From NCBI RefSeq assembly GCF_003725535.1, contig NZ_RJSF01000048.1, positions 1-64,000 on the forward strand: a stretch of 64,000 bases of DNA. Direction: 5' to 3'. Each line of letters starts with the position of its first letter. The first letter of the stretch is position 1. Below, one piece after another: positions 34,857 to 48,519 of this stretch. Under the pieces are notes generated by a model that was given only the letters and a program-made list of their open reading frames with translations, was not told the origin of the DNA and made no database searches. This DNA comes from Nocardioides pocheonensis. GTDB lineage: Bacteria > Actinomycetota > Actinomycetes > Propionibacteriales > Nocardioidaceae. The translations under genes and the position numbers were made by a program.

Positions 34857-35618
34857 TCAGGCCGACCGGGTCTTCACCTGGCCGCGCCACCGGGCGAACG
34901 AGCTGCTGGTCTCCGCCCAGGCGGGGAGCAACGACTCGTCGCCGGAGCGCAGGCGCGCGCCCATGAACAGCGCATGGGTGTCGGGTACGACGGGCCTGGT
35001 GTCGTGCTGGGCCGCGAGCACCTCGCGGGCGAGCGCGTCGAGGAACCAGTCCTCCGGCCCGGCCAGCTCGAACGACCCGTTCAGCGGCACACCGCGCGCG
35101 AGACGACACAATGTCGCGGCCACGTCGTCCGCCGAGACCGGGCGCACCCGGACGGGAGGCAGCCGCACCATGTGGGTGGTCGCGACGTGGTCGACGAGCC
35201 TGGGGACGTTCTCGTAGAACAAGGTCGTCCGGAGCACGGAGTGCGGGATCGGTGACTGCGCGACCAGCTGCTCCTGGGCGACCTTGCCCCGGAAGTAGTT
35301 GCTGTCGAGCCGCTCCGCCCCGATGACCGACAGGCCCACGTGGTGTCGAACGCCAGCGGACTCCTCGGCACGCAGCACGCTGCGGGTGCAGGTGTCGAAG
35401 AAGCTCAACCCCTGCTCGTACTCGTACGACGGGCGGTTCACGTTCAACACGTCGACGACGACGTCGACCCCGTCGAACGCCTCCCGGAGTCCCTCACCGG
35501 AGTAGGCGTCGACCCCGGTCCTTCGCGAGGCGACGCGAACGTCGTCGCCGTGATCCCGCAGCAGCCTCACGACCCGCGCGCCGATCAGGCCAGTACCTCC
35601 GACAACAGTCACGTGCAT
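34857..35618 (-). CDS. NAD(P)-binding epimerase/NmrA-like oxidoreductase
   Basis: A 253-residue atypical SDR protein with VTVVGGTGLIGARVVRLL at the N-terminus and HVGLSVIGAERL and YFRGKVAQEQLV in place of the classical YxxxK region. It resembles the protein at 37431-38177, the 'epimerase' type of COE partner typical beside ECF41 sigma genes. A CGTCACA-N16-GGTC element on the minus strand, 35 bp upstream of the ATG, suggests control by the neighbouring sigma factor. Confidence 0.85.
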   Translation of the reverse strand: MHVTVVGGTGLIGARVVRLLRDHGDDVRVASRRTGVDAYSGEGLREAFDGVDVVVDVLNVNRPSYEYEQGLSFFDTCTRSVLRAEESAGVRHHVGLSVIGAERLDSNYFRGKVAQEQLVAQSPIPHSVLRTTLFYENVPRLVDHVATTHMVRLPPVRVRPVSADDVAATLCRLARGVPLNGSFELAGPEDWFLDALAREVLAAQHDTRPVVPDTHALFMGARLRSGDESLLPAWAETSSSFARWRGQVKTRSA

Positions 35619-35652: not shown

Positions 35653-35679
35653 GACCGGAGACCGAGCCCGGATGTGACG
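35653..35679 (-). promoter_or_regulatory. ECF41-type promoter, divergent
   Basis: CGTCACA (35679-35673) followed after exactly 16 nt by GGTC (35656-35653) on the minus strand. It differs from TGTCACA-N16-GGTC by one base and points at the epimerase-like gene. Confidence 0.7.
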
Positions 35680-35691
35680 ACACCCGTGCGA

Positions 35692-35718
35692 TGTCACAGA
35701 GTCGTGGCCGATCCGGTC
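35692..35718 (+). promoter_or_regulatory. ECF41-type promoter of the Cys-rich protein/sigma unit
   Basis: TGTCACA (35692-35698), 16 nt, GGTC (35715-35718). The expected transcription start near 35725 lies downstream of ATG 35723, so the gene must use the later TTG at 35759. Confidence 0.82.
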
Positions 35719-35758
35719 ACAGATGCAGCGCAGGAACCCGGAGAGGAGGGTCGTCGCG

Positions 35759-36307
35759 TTGGCCGCACCGTCAGACTCGGACGCGGGGCCACGATGTCGC
35801 TGCGGGTGTCCCTACCTCCGCGGCCTCGTCCTGATGCCTGTGGTCCTGACCGTGTCCGAGAGCCGCGGTGTTCGCCTCGTCGGGCCGCCGATCCTCGACC
35901 TGCCGGTCGAGTCCCTGGTCTGCAAGGCGTGTGACGGGCGAACCGTGACCCGCGACCTGCCTCCGATCGGCATCGACGTGGCCGCGGTGCTCGAGCAGCT
36001 GGCCGGGGTCGGGCGATCCGACGTCGCGGCGCCCGGGACGCACGACGCGGCGCCGACCTGCGCGTGCGGCGCGCCGGACCTCACCTGGTCGACCGTCGTC
36101 CCACTCACGGTCCACACGGCCGGCACGACGATGACCGGCGAGGTCCCCACGACACCGTCGTCGGCATCTCCCACCGGCATCCTGTCGTGTGCCGCGTGCT
36201 CGGGATCCTGGGACGCCACGCACCCCGACCTCCCAGCGCGCATCCTGAACGCGTTCAGCGCGTTCGACGCTGCGCTCTCCCGCGGAGAGGTCGGCATCGA
36301 TGGGTGA
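35759..36307 (+). CDS. Cysteine-rich, probable zinc-binding protein
   Basis: A 182-residue protein of unknown family with two paired cysteine modules: RCRCGCP with CKACDG, and CACGAPDLTW with CAACSGSWD. The spacing suggests two zinc ribbons or rubredoxin-like knuckles. The start is set at TTG 35759 because GGAGAGGAGG lies 9 nt upstream and the promoter leaves the ATG at 35723 outside the transcript. It precedes the sigma gene by 121 bp and shares its likely promoter. A redox- or metal-sensing role beside an ECF sigma factor is only a hypothesis. Confidence 0.7.
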   Translation: MAAPSDSDAGPRCRCGCPYLRGLVLMPVVLTVSESRGVRLVGPPILDLPVESLVCKACDGRTVTRDLPPIGIDVAAVLEQLAGVGRSDVAAPGTHDAAPTCACGAPDLTWSTVVPLTVHTAGTTMTGEVPTTPSSASPTGILSCAACSGSWDATHPDLPARILNAFSAFDAALSRGEVGIDG

Positions 36308-36428
36308 CAGGCGCGATCTGGTGCGGCCGGCGCGTCGGTGGGACGCTGTCGACGAGGGTTCGGCCGCCACACGCGCCGGTTCCCCTGGTCGTCGAGGTGA
36401 TCCGATCGCGGGCAAGGACGAGACCGAC

Positions 36429-37325
36429 ATGACGTCAAGCAAGGCCGGTGACGAGTCCGGCGCAGGCATCGAGGCGGCGATCGGCGCGTTCAACGAGTCG
36501 CGGCCACGCCTGTTCGGCATCGCGTACCGCATGCTCGGCAGCGTCGCCGAGGCCGAGGACATCGTCCAGGAGGCCTGGGTGCGCTGGCAGGGAACCGACC
36601 GCAGCGTCGTGCGCAACCCCGCGGGATTCCTGACCACCGTGACCACCCGACTCGCACTGAACACCGCCGAGTCCGCACGCGTACGACGCGAGCAGTACGT
36701 CGGCCCGTGGCTGCCCGAGCCCGTCGACACCAGCGCCGACCCGAGCCTCGGCGCCGAGAGGGCCGAAGCCCTGGAGTCCGCAGTGCTGGTGCTGCTCGAG
36801 AAGGTCAGGCCTGACCAGCGGGCGGCGTACGTGCTGCGCGAAGCCTTCGACTACTCGTACGACGAGGTCGCCGACATCCTGGACACGTCCGCGGCGAACG
36901 CCCGTCAGCTGGTCAGCCGCGCGAAGAAGTCGGTCCAGTCCGACCGCAAGGAACCGGTCGACCCGGCCACGCACCGGACCCTGCTCGAGGCGTTCGTCGC
37001 GGCCGCCCGCGACGGGGACGTGAAGCGGCTCGAGCAGGTGCTCTCCGCGGACGTCGTCAGCACCACCGACAGCGCCGGAGAAGCCCCTCGGGCGGCCCGC
37101 CGGCCGGTCAGCGGGCGGGACAACGTCGCCCGGTTCATCGCCGGGTGGTCCGACTGGTGGGAGGGAACGACCCTGTCGTGGGTCGAGACGAACGGCCAGA
37201 CCTCGCTGCTCGCCCGACGCGACGGTGCCCCGGCGGTCCTCCTCAGCGTCAGCGCGTCGGGCTCCGGCATCGACCGGATCATGTGGGTGATGGCGCCCGA
37301 CAAGCTCACGCGCGTCCCGGCGTAG
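36429..37325 (+). CDS. ECF41-type RNA polymerase sigma factor (SigJ-like)
   Basis: A 298-residue sigma factor. Region 2 is FGIAYRMLGSVAEAEDIVQEAWVRW; region 4 is VLREAFDYSYDEVADILDTS with SAANARQLVSRAKK. A fused SnoaL-like C-terminal domain (from about residue 185) contains DSAGEAPRAARRPV and ends PDKLTRVPA. ECF41 proteins carry such a domain with DGGGK and NPDKL motifs instead of using an anti-sigma factor. Here the first motif is degenerate. Four promoter-like elements with GGTC -10 motifs surround it. Confidence 0.92.
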   Translation: MTSSKAGDESGAGIEAAIGAFNESRPRLFGIAYRMLGSVAEAEDIVQEAWVRWQGTDRSVVRNPAGFLTTVTTRLALNTAESARVRREQYVGPWLPEPVDTSADPSLGAERAEALESAVLVLLEKVRPDQRAAYVLREAFDYSYDEVADILDTSAANARQLVSRAKKSVQSDRKEPVDPATHRTLLEAFVAAARDGDVKRLEQVLSADVVSTTDSAGEAPRAARRPVSGRDNVARFIAGWSDWWEGTTLSWVETNGQTSLLARRDGAPAVLLSVSASGSGIDRIMWVMAPDKLTRVPA

Positions 37326-37348
37326 CGAGAGGTCGAGCGCCGCATCGG

Positions 37349-37375
37349 TGTCACAGCCGCGAGGCCTCCCCGGTC
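37349..37375 (+). promoter_or_regulatory. ECF41-type promoter of the SDR partner gene
   Basis: TGTCACA (37349-37355), 16 nt, GGTC (37372-37375), 55 bp before the SDR start and 24 bp after the sigma stop. Confidence 0.82.
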
Positions 37376-37430
37376 AGTAGGGCGGAGGCGGATCAGCCGC
37401 GCTCGTCGGAATCCCAGAGAGGGGCCACTC

Positions 37431-38177
37431 ATGAAGGTCGTCGTCATCGGCGGAACCGGGCTCATCGGTTCGAAGGTCACCGAGCTGCTCAACGCTCACG
37501 GTCACGAGGCGGTGCCCGCCGCGCCCCAGACCGGCGTCAACACCCTGACAGGAGAAGGACTGGACGACGTGCTGACCGGCGCGGACGTCGTGGTCGACGT
37601 CTCCAACTCGCCGTCCTTCGCGGACGACGACGTCATGGCGTTCTTCGTCACCGCCACCACCAACATCCTCGCCGCCGAGAGGAAGGCCGGCGTCAAGCAC
37701 CACGTCGCGCTCTCCGTCGTGGGCACAGGGACCCTGCCGGACAGCGGATACCTGCGCGCCAAGGCCGCTCAGGAGGACCTCATCAAGGGGTCCGGCGTCC
37801 CCTACTCGATCGTGCACGCGACTCAGTTCTTCGAGTTCACCCGGGCGATCGCCGACGGGTCGATGGTCGACGGGAAGCTGCACCTGGCGCCGGTCCACTA
37901 CCAGCCGATCGCGTCCGACGACGTGGCCTCGGCCGTGAGCCACGTCGCCGTCGGCGCACCGCTGCAGGGCGTCAAGGAGATCGGCGGCCCCGAGCGGGTG
38001 CGGATGGACGAGTTCATCCCGGCTGCGCTCGCCAGGTCGGGCGACACGCGCGACGTCGTCGTCGACGAGCACGCCACGTACTTCGGCACCGAGCTGGCCG
38101 ACGACAGCCTCGTGCCCGGCCCCGACGCCGAGCTGGGCTCGATCACCTACGAGGCCTGGGCCAAGGAACCTGCCTGA
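37431..38177 (+). CDS. NAD(P)-binding epimerase/SDR, ECF41 partner (COE) protein
   Basis: A 248-residue atypical SDR (VVIGGTGLIGSKVTELLNAHGH; HHVALSVVGTGTL; YLRAKAAQEDLI) similar to the protein at 34857-35618. ECF41 sigma genes are typically linked to a carboxymuconolactone decarboxylase, oxidoreductase or epimerase (COE) gene whose promoter they drive. This is the expected partner, with such a promoter upstream. GAGAGGGG precedes the ATG. Its substrate is unknown. Confidence 0.88.
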   Translation: MKVVVIGGTGLIGSKVTELLNAHGHEAVPAAPQTGVNTLTGEGLDDVLTGADVVVDVSNSPSFADDDVMAFFVTATTNILAAERKAGVKHHVALSVVGTGTLPDSGYLRAKAAQEDLIKGSGVPYSIVHATQFFEFTRAIADGSMVDGKLHLAPVHYQPIASDDVASAVSHVAVGAPLQGVKEIGGPERVRMDEFIPAALARSGDTRDVVVDEHATYFGTELADDSLVPGPDAELGSITYEAWAKEPA

Positions 38178-38254
38178 GGCCGTGGGTCCCGCCACGTGTC
38201 GTGGCGGGACCCGCGGCTCGAGGAGCGCTCCGTGCACACGCCGGGTGCCCTCCG

Positions 38255-38281
38255 TGTCACAGATTCCGGCCGTGGTCGGTC
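38255..38281 (+). promoter_or_regulatory. ECF41-type promoter of a 71-residue protein gene
   Basis: TGTCACA (38255-38261), 16 nt, GGTC (38278-38281). The next ATG (38290) is 8 nt beyond the -10 motif, so the transcript is leaderless or nearly so. Confidence 0.8.
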
Positions 38282-38289
38282 ATCGGTTC

Positions 38290-38505
38290 ATGACCAACCT
38301 TCCGAACAACGCCGATCTGCCGGGCATCGCCTTCGAGGCAGATCTCGAGATCCTGGTCGCCGAGACGATCGAGGCAGCAGTGCCGGTGTCCGACGATGCC
38401 GCACGCGCGGTCGACACGATCGAGATCGGCTACTACGAGGCCGAGCTCAAGAGCCTCCGCGATGCGGCCACGACGCTGAACGAGGCTGAGCAGCACACCG
38501 GATGA
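38290..38505 (+). CDS. Small acidic protein of unknown function, probable ECF41 target
   Basis: A 71-residue acidic protein (MTNLPNNADLPGIAF...AEQHTG). Its middle (LEILVAETIEAAVPVSDDAARAVDTIEIGY) and end (YEAELKSLRDAATTLNEAE) are predicted helical. There is no cysteine, membrane helix or recognised domain. It starts 8 nt after an ECF41-type -10 motif and is translated without a ribosome-binding site. The promoter is the best evidence that it is a real gene. Confidence 0.65.
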   Translation: MTNLPNNADLPGIAFEADLEILVAETIEAAVPVSDDAARAVDTIEIGYYEAELKSLRDAATTLNEAEQHTG

Positions 38506-46990: not shown

Positions 46991-47017
46991 TGTCACAACT
47001 CGCGGCCGGCCGGCGTC
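46991..47017 (+). promoter_or_regulatory. ECF41-type promoter of the CMD-sigma operon
   Basis: TGTCACA (46991-46997), 16 nt, CGTC (47014-47017), an exact match to the published ECF41 target motif, 33 bp before the CMD start. Confidence 0.88.
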
Positions 47018-47050
47018 TTGATGTCGTACCGACCGACCGAGGAGGACGAC

Positions 47051-47641
47051 ATGAGTGGAAACACCCGCATCCCGGCTGCCGAGATCACCGGACTCAAGGG
47101 CGCCGTGATCAAGCGGTTCGCGAGGAAGAGCCTGGGCCAGGTGCCGAGCTCCCTCGGCGTCTACTGGCACAACCAGAAGGTGCTGATGAGCATGGCAGGC
47201 ATCGGGGGCAAGGTGCAGAAGTGGGACGCGTGCGACGAGCAGCTGAAGTCGTTCGCGCACATGGCGGTCGCCGCGCAGGTCGGTTGCAGCTGGTGCCTGG
47301 ACTTCAACTACTTCGAGGCCCACAACAAGGACCTCGACATGGTGAAGGCACGGGAGATCCCGCGGTGGCGCGAGTCCGAGGCGTTCTCGCCGCTCGAGCG
47401 CGAGGTGCTGGCGTACGCCGAGGCGATGACCGAGACCGAGCCGACGGCGACCGACGAGCTGGTGGCGTCCTTGCGGGAGCAGCTGGGAGACGCGGCCCTG
47501 GTCGAGCTCACCGCGATCATCGCGTTCGCCAACTTCACGACGCGTGCGAACGTCGCGCTCGGCATCGAGTCGGACGGCTTCGCCGCGGCATGCGGTCTGA
47601 AGCCGCTCGCGCAGCCCACCGCCGTAGGGTCTCGACCGTGA
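47051..47641 (+). CDS. Carboxymuconolactone decarboxylase (AhpD-like) family protein
   Basis: A 196-residue protein with the AhpD-core redox motif CSWCLDFNYFEAH (Cys-x-x-Cys and His), suggesting peroxidase or decarboxylase-like chemistry. It is the 'C' type COE partner of ECF41 sigma factors. GAGGAGG lies before ATG 47051. The gene overlaps the sigma gene by 4 bp (GTGA), so both are co-translated from the ECF41 promoter upstream, implying autoregulation. Confidence 0.9.
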   Translation: MSGNTRIPAAEITGLKGAVIKRFARKSLGQVPSSLGVYWHNQKVLMSMAGIGGKVQKWDACDEQLKSFAHMAVAAQVGCSWCLDFNYFEAHNKDLDMVKAREIPRWRESEAFSPLEREVLAYAEAMTETEPTATDELVASLREQLGDAALVELTAIIAFANFTTRANVALGIESDGFAAACGLKPLAQPTAVGSRP

Positions 47642-48519
47642 CCGACGACCCGTTCGTGGCCCACCGGGGGCTGCTGTTCACCGTCGCCTACGAGATGCTC
47701 GGCTCCGCCGCCGACGCCGAGGATGTGGTGCAGGAGACCTGGCTGCGATGGGACGCCATCGGTGCGGGCGAGCGCGCCGAGGTGCGCGACGCCCGGGCGT
47801 TCCTGGTGCGGATGGTGACGCGCAAGGCGCTCGACCGGCTGCGCTCCAACGCCCGGCGGCGCGAGGAGTACGTCGGCGAGTGGCTGCCGGAGCCGCTCCT
47901 CACCGCGCCGGACGTGGCCGACGACCTCGAGCTCGCCGAGAGCGTGTCGTTCGCGATGCTCACCGTGCTCGAGACGCTCACGCCCACCGAGCGAGCGGTG
48001 TTCGTGCTGCGCGAGGTGTTCGACACGCCGTACGGCGAGATCGCGGAGGCGGTCGGCAAGTCCGAGGCCGCCGTGCGCCAGACCGCGCACCGGGCACGCG
48101 GGCACGTCGCGGCGCGGAGGCCCCGGATGGAGGTCAGCCCGCGGGAGCAGCAGGAGGTCGTCGACCGCTTCCTCGCGGCCGCGAGCCGCGGCGACCTCCA
48201 GGGGCTCCTGGACGTGCTGGCTCCCGACGTCGTCCTCGTCGCCGACGGCGGCGGCATCGTGCAGGCGGTCGTGACCCCGGTCGTCGGCGCGAAGAAGGTC
48301 GCGAACCTGCTCCGGCCGTTCCCACGGCTCGCCCCCGGTGCGACGTTCCTGCCCGTGCTCCTCAACGGCGCCCCGGGCGCCCGTCTGGTGGGCACCCTCG
48401 ACGGCTACGACACCGCGATCAGCTTCGTGGTCGAGGACGGGCGGATCACCCGGATCTACGCCGTGCGCAACCCCGCCAAGCTGGGCCGGATCGACGTCGA
48501 GGCGACGATCCGGCGGTAG
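47638..48519 (+). CDS. ECF41-type RNA polymerase sigma factor
   Basis: A 293-residue sigma factor. Region 2 is FTVAYEMLGSAADAEDVVQETWLRW and region 4 VLREVFDTPYGEIAEAVGKS with EAAVRQTAHRARGH. The fused SnoaL-like domain carries the conserved DGGG (VLVADGGGIVQA) and NPAKL near the C-terminus, which are more canonical than in the sigma factor at 36429. The GTG start overlaps the CMD stop. The C-terminal domain is expected to gate activity in place of an anti-sigma factor. Confidence 0.93.
   Translation: MTDDPFVAHRGLLFTVAYEMLGSAADAEDVVQETWLRWDAIGAGERAEVRDARAFLVRMVTRKALDRLRSNARRREEYVGEWLPEPLLTAPDVADDLELAESVSFAMLTVLETLTPTERAVFVLREVFDTPYGEIAEAVGKSEAAVRQTAHRARGHVAARRPRMEVSPREQQEVVDRFLAAASRGDLQGLLDVLAPDVVLVADGGGIVQAVVTPVVGAKKVANLLRPFPRLAPGATFLPVLLNGAPGARLVGTLDGYDTAISFVVEDGRITRIYAVRNPAKLGRIDVEATIRR

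Follow-up and report, generated by a model that had tools for sequence, protein, structure and literature searches.

A gene island of Nocardioides pocheonensis can be regarded with good confidence as a compact, probably autoregulated ECF41 regulon with four promoters, in which the first base of the -10 element is most likely set by residue 78 of the sigma factor. This explanation is based on what was observed in the sequence, the genome-wide specificity of the promoter pattern, its conservation, and the covariation between residue and base. The window consisted of positions 1 to 64,000 of contig NZ_RJSF01000048.1 (64,000 nucleotides).

The ECF41 locus and its promoter sites

Four [T/C]GTCACA-N16-GGTC sites were present at the positions and on the strands originally predicted (P1 to P4 in Table 1), and each faced an island gene, as claimed: an ORF was located downstream on the correct strand in 4/4 cases. 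The distances between the -10 element and the ORF start were 34 bp (divergent SDR), 40 bp (Cys-rich protein, TTG start), 55 bp (SDR2), and 8 bp (71-residue ORF). The window contained five matches to YGTCACA-N16-SGTC, whereas 100 shuffles averaged 0.40 matches and never gave more than 3. When the genome-wide search proposed with the original prediction was performed, TGTCACA-N16-SGTC was found four times in the 4.92-Mb genome, 4/4 inside the window. TGTCACA-N16-NGTC gave five matches, all confined to ECF41 loci (5/5): three in the island and the other two before the genome's two operons of carboxymuconolactone decarboxylase (CMD) and ECF41. This pattern is essentially ECF41-locus-specific in the source genome. 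A looser -35 element (BGTCACR) for extending the regulon was rejected: its 93 genome matches were mainly background. Neither sigma-70-type promoters nor terminators were found in the island by a site search. The four sites are very probably promoters of the island sigma factor, and the island is expected to give rise to multiple local transcripts. Separately, an identical 27-mer, TGTCACGTTGTCTCTGTGCCACCGGTC, was detected at G000:C5:135280-135306 and G000:C40:649731-649757, perhaps as a repeated element.

Table 1. Coordinates of promoter sites and genes in the window.
Feature	Position	Strand	Remarks
P1, CGTCACA-N16-GGTC	35653..35679	-	Predicted promoter of the divergent SDR gene
P2, TGTCACA-N16-GGTC	35692..35718	+	Predicted to serve the Cys-rich and sigma genes; candidate for autoregulation
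P3, TGTCACA-N16-GGTC	37349..37375	+	SDR2; same promoter type before the orthologous SDR in many loci
P4, TGTCACA-N16-GGTC	38255..38281	+	Predicted promoter of the 71-residue ORF
Comparator, TGTCACA-N16-CGTC	46991..47017	+	Promoter of the second ECF41 operon (fifth window site)
Divergent NAD(P)-binding SDR/NmrA-like protein	34857..35618	-	43% identical to SDR2
Cys-rich protein	35759..36307	+	TTG after GGAGAGGAGG is the probable start; a further in-frame ATG lies at 35723
ECF41 sigma factor	36429..37325	+	SnoaL-like C-terminal extension, WLPEP linker, Asn78 (codon 36660-36662)
SDR2, NAD(P)H-binding (PF13460)	37431..38177	+	Conserved COE-type target
71-residue ORF	38290..38505	+	Frame favoured by codon usage
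CMD family protein, CxxC	47051..47641	+	Comparator
Second ECF41 sigma factor	47638..48519	+	Asp66 (codon 47833-47835), equivalent to residue 78

The assignment of the sigma factor as ECF41/SigJ-like was confirmed by nearly full-length profile matches to the SigX4 (326.9 bits; cut-off 323.25) and SigJ models (280.5; cut-off 271). Sigma70_r2 and Sigma70_r4_2 were above the cut-off, corresponding to the ECF layout with regions 2 and 4 only; SnoaL_2 in the extension scored 20.8, below its own cut-off of 27. The linker contained the WLPEP motif (VGPWLPEPVD). The ECF41 extension carries conserved DGGG- and NPDKL-like motifs. The corresponding sequences were DSAGE and APDKL in the island factor, DGGGK and NPDKL in the consensus of factors outside its sub-clade (see below), and DSNGK in SigJ. 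Two NAD_binding_10/NmrA/Epimerase-type proteins, neighbours of the ECF41 type, adjoined the sigma gene, and the TGTCACA -35 element and spacer agreed with the ECF41 promoter (16±1 bp). The consensus -10 element of ECF41, CGTC, was absent, with GGTC at 4/4 island sites. GGTC is a variant of the sub-clade and no ground for exclusion from ECF41, since the source paper itself reports departures from CGTC, which is a consensus and not invariant: the -10 element of Bacillus licheniformis ECF41 is TGTT (PMC3426412).

The site at 35692 was predicted to drive the Cys-rich gene; this remains likely, and the sigma gene is probably included too, adding an autoregulation absent from the original prediction. 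P2 most likely drives both genes together, and would hence be autoregulatory, because the ORFs overlap and no terminator-like site was found. An alternative ATG of the sigma gene at 36300, with a good ribosome-binding site, overlaps the stop codon of the Cys-rich gene; homology of the sigma factor starts after 36429. Codon statistics supported the frames in Table 1; this support was clear in the 71-residue ORF and weak in the Cys-rich ORF. The Cys-rich protein is built from a pair of similar halves that both contain CxC(G)...CxxC, and resembles a duplicated zinc-ribbon. No family was found for it, Pfam and PDB matches at high E-values being noise, nor any relatives among 58 related genomes or in a wider genome-contig search; the mean pLDDT of its AlphaFold model was 36. 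The 71-residue protein was helical in a low-confidence prediction (pLDDT 60). Its candidate relatives were rejected: E values were about 0.001-0.01 only, and the best one had no ECF41 promoter in front. Since the -10 element of P4 ends 8 bp before the ATG, its transcript is likely leaderless.

Three further ECF41 loci were found in this genome. A classical CMD-ECF41 operon with a CGTC promoter (46991-48519) is located 10 kb from the island, a CMD-ECF41 pair on contig C42 has a TGTCACA-N16-TGTC site in front, and a fourth ECF41-like gene on contig C43 had no TGTCACA-N16-NGTC site.

Promoter classes and residue 78

Orthologous loci with flanks were collected at 49-69% identity of the sigma factor, by a sampling that favoured close relatives of the query. 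We propose a sub-clade A of 65 factors with at least 49% identity, Asn78, and G or T as the first -10 base. The island factor grouped within this actinobacterial sub-clade with a node support of 0.65 (0.995 one node deeper). The first -10 base was G at 62, T at 26, and C at 2 sites of the sub-clade, and C at 27, T at 10, and G at 1 site outside (G versus other bases, p = 3e-13, the sites not being independent of descent). The idea that GGTC is unique to the island was dropped, GGTC/TGTC being the normal -10 element of the whole sub-clade. Directly before the -10 element, sub-clade sites had a GGCTGYCC-like sequence, and CMD-type sites had CCGGYCGG. The island sites matched the sub-clade spacer (p = 0.015, 0.007, 0.057, and 0.031), P4 being the weakest of the four (p = 0.057; p = 0.14 in the 64-locus analysis), and the sites at 46991 and on C42 fitted the CMD-type spacer (p = 0.0004 for the second operon). 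Thus, GGTC or TGTC with a GGCTGYCC-like spacer is the normal promoter of the sub-clade.

The top-ranked alignment column between sub-clade and CGTC-type factors was residue 78 (island numbering) in region 2.4. This residue was Asn in 63/65 sub-clade factors, and its equivalent was Asp in 25/25 CGTC-type loci and Asn in 11/11 non-CGTC loci outside the sub-clade. Counted by site, the combinations were Asn-G (63), Asn-T (36), Asn-C (2), Asp-C (27), and Asp-G/T (0), giving G/T:C ratios of 99:2 for Asn and 0:27 for Asp; the exceptions were Asn78 factors near a CGTC site in two sub-clade loci (L072 and L151). Among Asn/Asp loci added after the rule was formed, 36/36 obeyed it (Asn-T 23, Asn-G 1, Asp-C 12), and the same later set also gave Ser-C 2; these actinobacterial relatives of the second factor are a new sample, phylogenetically not fully independent. 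By published alignment landmarks (W81, I85, and N88 of sigma H), residue 78 corresponds to N92 of sigma H, which contacts the -11 base pair, and SigJ has Arg at the N88 position (PMC6411747). For sigma L, the corresponding helix has been suggested to recognise the two bases that lie upstream of the melted ones, a point that the structures left unsettled (PMC6372665). Asn78 most likely sets the first -10 base to G or T; factors with Asp at this position, including the second one of the window, use CGTC.

On the other hand, many positions set sub-clade A as a whole apart, and the link may be a by-product of shared ancestry, with no contact between residue and base. We consider this unlikely. The tree contained seven residue changes and six base changes, with joint switches in both directions and at shared places (e.g., L007 and L172), so that residue and base switched together several independent times (L007, L172, L083/L200/L181, and Ser-C in L233/L234). 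Furthermore, the later-added loci kept the Asn/Asp rule with zero exceptions, and the residue position belongs to the helix located at these bases in other ECF complexes (PMC6411747, PMC6372665). The second factor of the window was itself an Asp/CGTC factor inside an Asn/TGTC group on the tree. The factors of L233 and L234 were of the CMD type, with Ser at the residue-78 position and CGTC sites among Asn/TGTC relatives.

Local regulons and proposed regulation

SDR2 and its promoter formed the conserved core across orthologous loci. The alignment of related loci suggested as a check therefore bore out the SDR promoter; the Cys-rich and 71-residue genes had no detectable relatives for comparison. 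With tolerated -35 variants included if their spacer matched, at least two sites were found in 31/65 sub-clade loci, at least three in 16/65, and at least four in 9/65, and the richest loci contained six to seven promoters. With the exact -35 element, at least two sites were present in 22/65 sub-clade versus 2/53 outside loci (p = 5e-5), and a scrambled -35 control gave no sites in 37 loci. The view that the island goes beyond the arrangement of one sigma factor and one COE gene was supported for its four very probable local promoters, but not as something special, about half of the sub-clade having at least two promoters. All four genome sites of a Streptacidiphilus (7 Mb) were located inside 4.8 kb, and 5/6 of a Nocardiopsis within 10 kb. 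In 64 related loci, TGTCACA-KGTC was found 88 times at N16, and the spacings N13-15 and N17-19 yielded no more than one match each; the -35 variants GGTCACA and TGTCACG were also enriched at N16, most other single changes not.

Besides SDRs, the targets in the sub-clade by Pfam were CMD, FAD_binding_2/fumarate-reductase-like flavoprotein, cupin, OsmC, pyridine-nucleotide reductases, alpha/beta hydrolase, and the metallo-beta-lactamase fold; these target types suggest a role in redox or electrophile stress. In one genus-level group (L070, L071, L095, and L096), an SDR was paired with an NDH-2-like pyridine-nucleotide reductase, mostly with its own promoter for each. Several multi-promoter islands encode an additional SigJ-like protein behind a promoter of this type, near -2417 from the sigma gene in L134 and similarly in L143, L156, L161, and L072. 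The one scanned showed no Pfam sigma match, scored below the SigJ and SigX4 cut-offs, and had a seemingly degenerate sigma region 2; such proteins might serve the ECF41 factor as a partner or act as its antagonist.

The divergent site P1 was unremarkable by pattern count alone, because CGTCACA-N16-NGTC had 10 genome matches including P1, and its non-consensus -35 element counts against it. Among these ten sites, P1 had the spacer closest to that of the sub-clade promoter (p = 0.03; 0.13-0.92 for the other nine). P1 and P2 stand back to back with their -35 boxes 12 bp apart, and seven other loci (L074, L075, L091, L079, L093, L164, and L165; L075 and L091 are near-identical) likewise contained divergent pairs, their -35 ends separated by 8-33 bp. 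In the 64 related loci, CGTCACA-Nx-KGTC had 19 matches at N16, against zero or one at every other spacing in the N13-N19 range. The near-restriction of CGTCACA to N16 in related islands, together with the recurrence of closely spaced divergent pairs, indicates that P1 is probably a real promoter.

A more conventional explanation is that the sigma gene and one SDR are the only real targets, with P1 and/or P4 being chance matches, in keeping with the one target per ECF41 factor reported in two species by Wecke et al. 2012 (PMC3426412), the weak spacer of P4, and the nine other CGTCACA sites of the genome. However, the N16 enrichment and recurrent divergent pairs speak against chance for P1, and for P4, 8 bp before an ATG, a fortuitous match is improbable, given that the pattern (TGTCACA-N16-NGTC) had no match outside ECF41 loci in this genome; we therefore regard this explanation as quite unlikely. 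Also unlikely is cross-regulation, in which the three promoter-bearing ECF41 factors share all five sites: the -35 element and spacing are identical at 5/5 sites, but the spacer and first -10 base track the sigma sequence (Asn/GGTC, Asp/CGTC, and Asn/TGTC), and it is GGTC and TGTC factors that could overlap in sites.

Returning to the four-promoter regulon, we infer promoter activity, autoregulation, physical contact, signal, and physiology as follows, with sites assigned to factors by proximity in genomes that carry several ECF41 paralogues. The ECF41 extension inhibits yet is partly required (PMC3426412), and, by analogy with the proteins studied, a signal may relieve the SnoaL-like extension. 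The sigma factor would then guide RNA polymerase to the four [T/C]GTCACA-N16-GGTC promoters, yielding the divergent SDR, the Cys-rich and sigma operon, SDR2, and the 71-residue protein on a likely leaderless mRNA. Transcription of the sigma gene from P2 would provide positive feedback, and the co-ordinated output would be two SDRs and two private proteins. Because P1 and P2 nearly touch, they might compete for polymerase.

Comparison with known systems

Taken together, ECF41 factors probably fall into specificity classes determined largely by a single region 2.4 residue (Asn with [G/T]GTC; Asp or Ser with CGTC) and by a class-specific spacer, one actinobacterial class controlling local multi-gene regulons around its sigma gene, with a probable role in redox or electrophile stress and insulated paralogues in the same genome. 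We know of no inducing signal for ECF41, a widespread ECF group; the target types of the sub-clade supply reporters for finding it. The local regulons of up to seven promoters in the sub-clade stand against the published one-target rule (PMC3426412). With the Asn/Asp rule, swapping one residue could test specificity just upstream of the melted -10 bases, a question that PMC6372665 did not settle, and both natural versions of the residue are located 10 kb apart in the window.

Todor et al. (2020, PNAS) are reported to have described a general code in which residues in domains 2 and 4 of ECF factors are connected with -10 and -35 bases; it resembles the present rule in tying sigma residues to promoter bases and may already contain the residue-78/base pair. 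The closest solved structure, SigJ from Mycobacterium tuberculosis (PDB 5xe7), was aligned over residues 18-241; unlike the island factor, it has Asp at the position equivalent to Asn78, which predicts the CGTC class. The island shares with group ECF41 (PMC3426412) the ECF sigma domains, WLPEP linker, large C-terminal extension, COE-type neighbour, TGTCACA -35 element, 16-bp spacer, and lack of an anti-sigma gene. It differs in GGTC instead of CGTC, the conserved spacer beside the -10 element, four local promoters (one of them divergent), and two uncharacterised target proteins.
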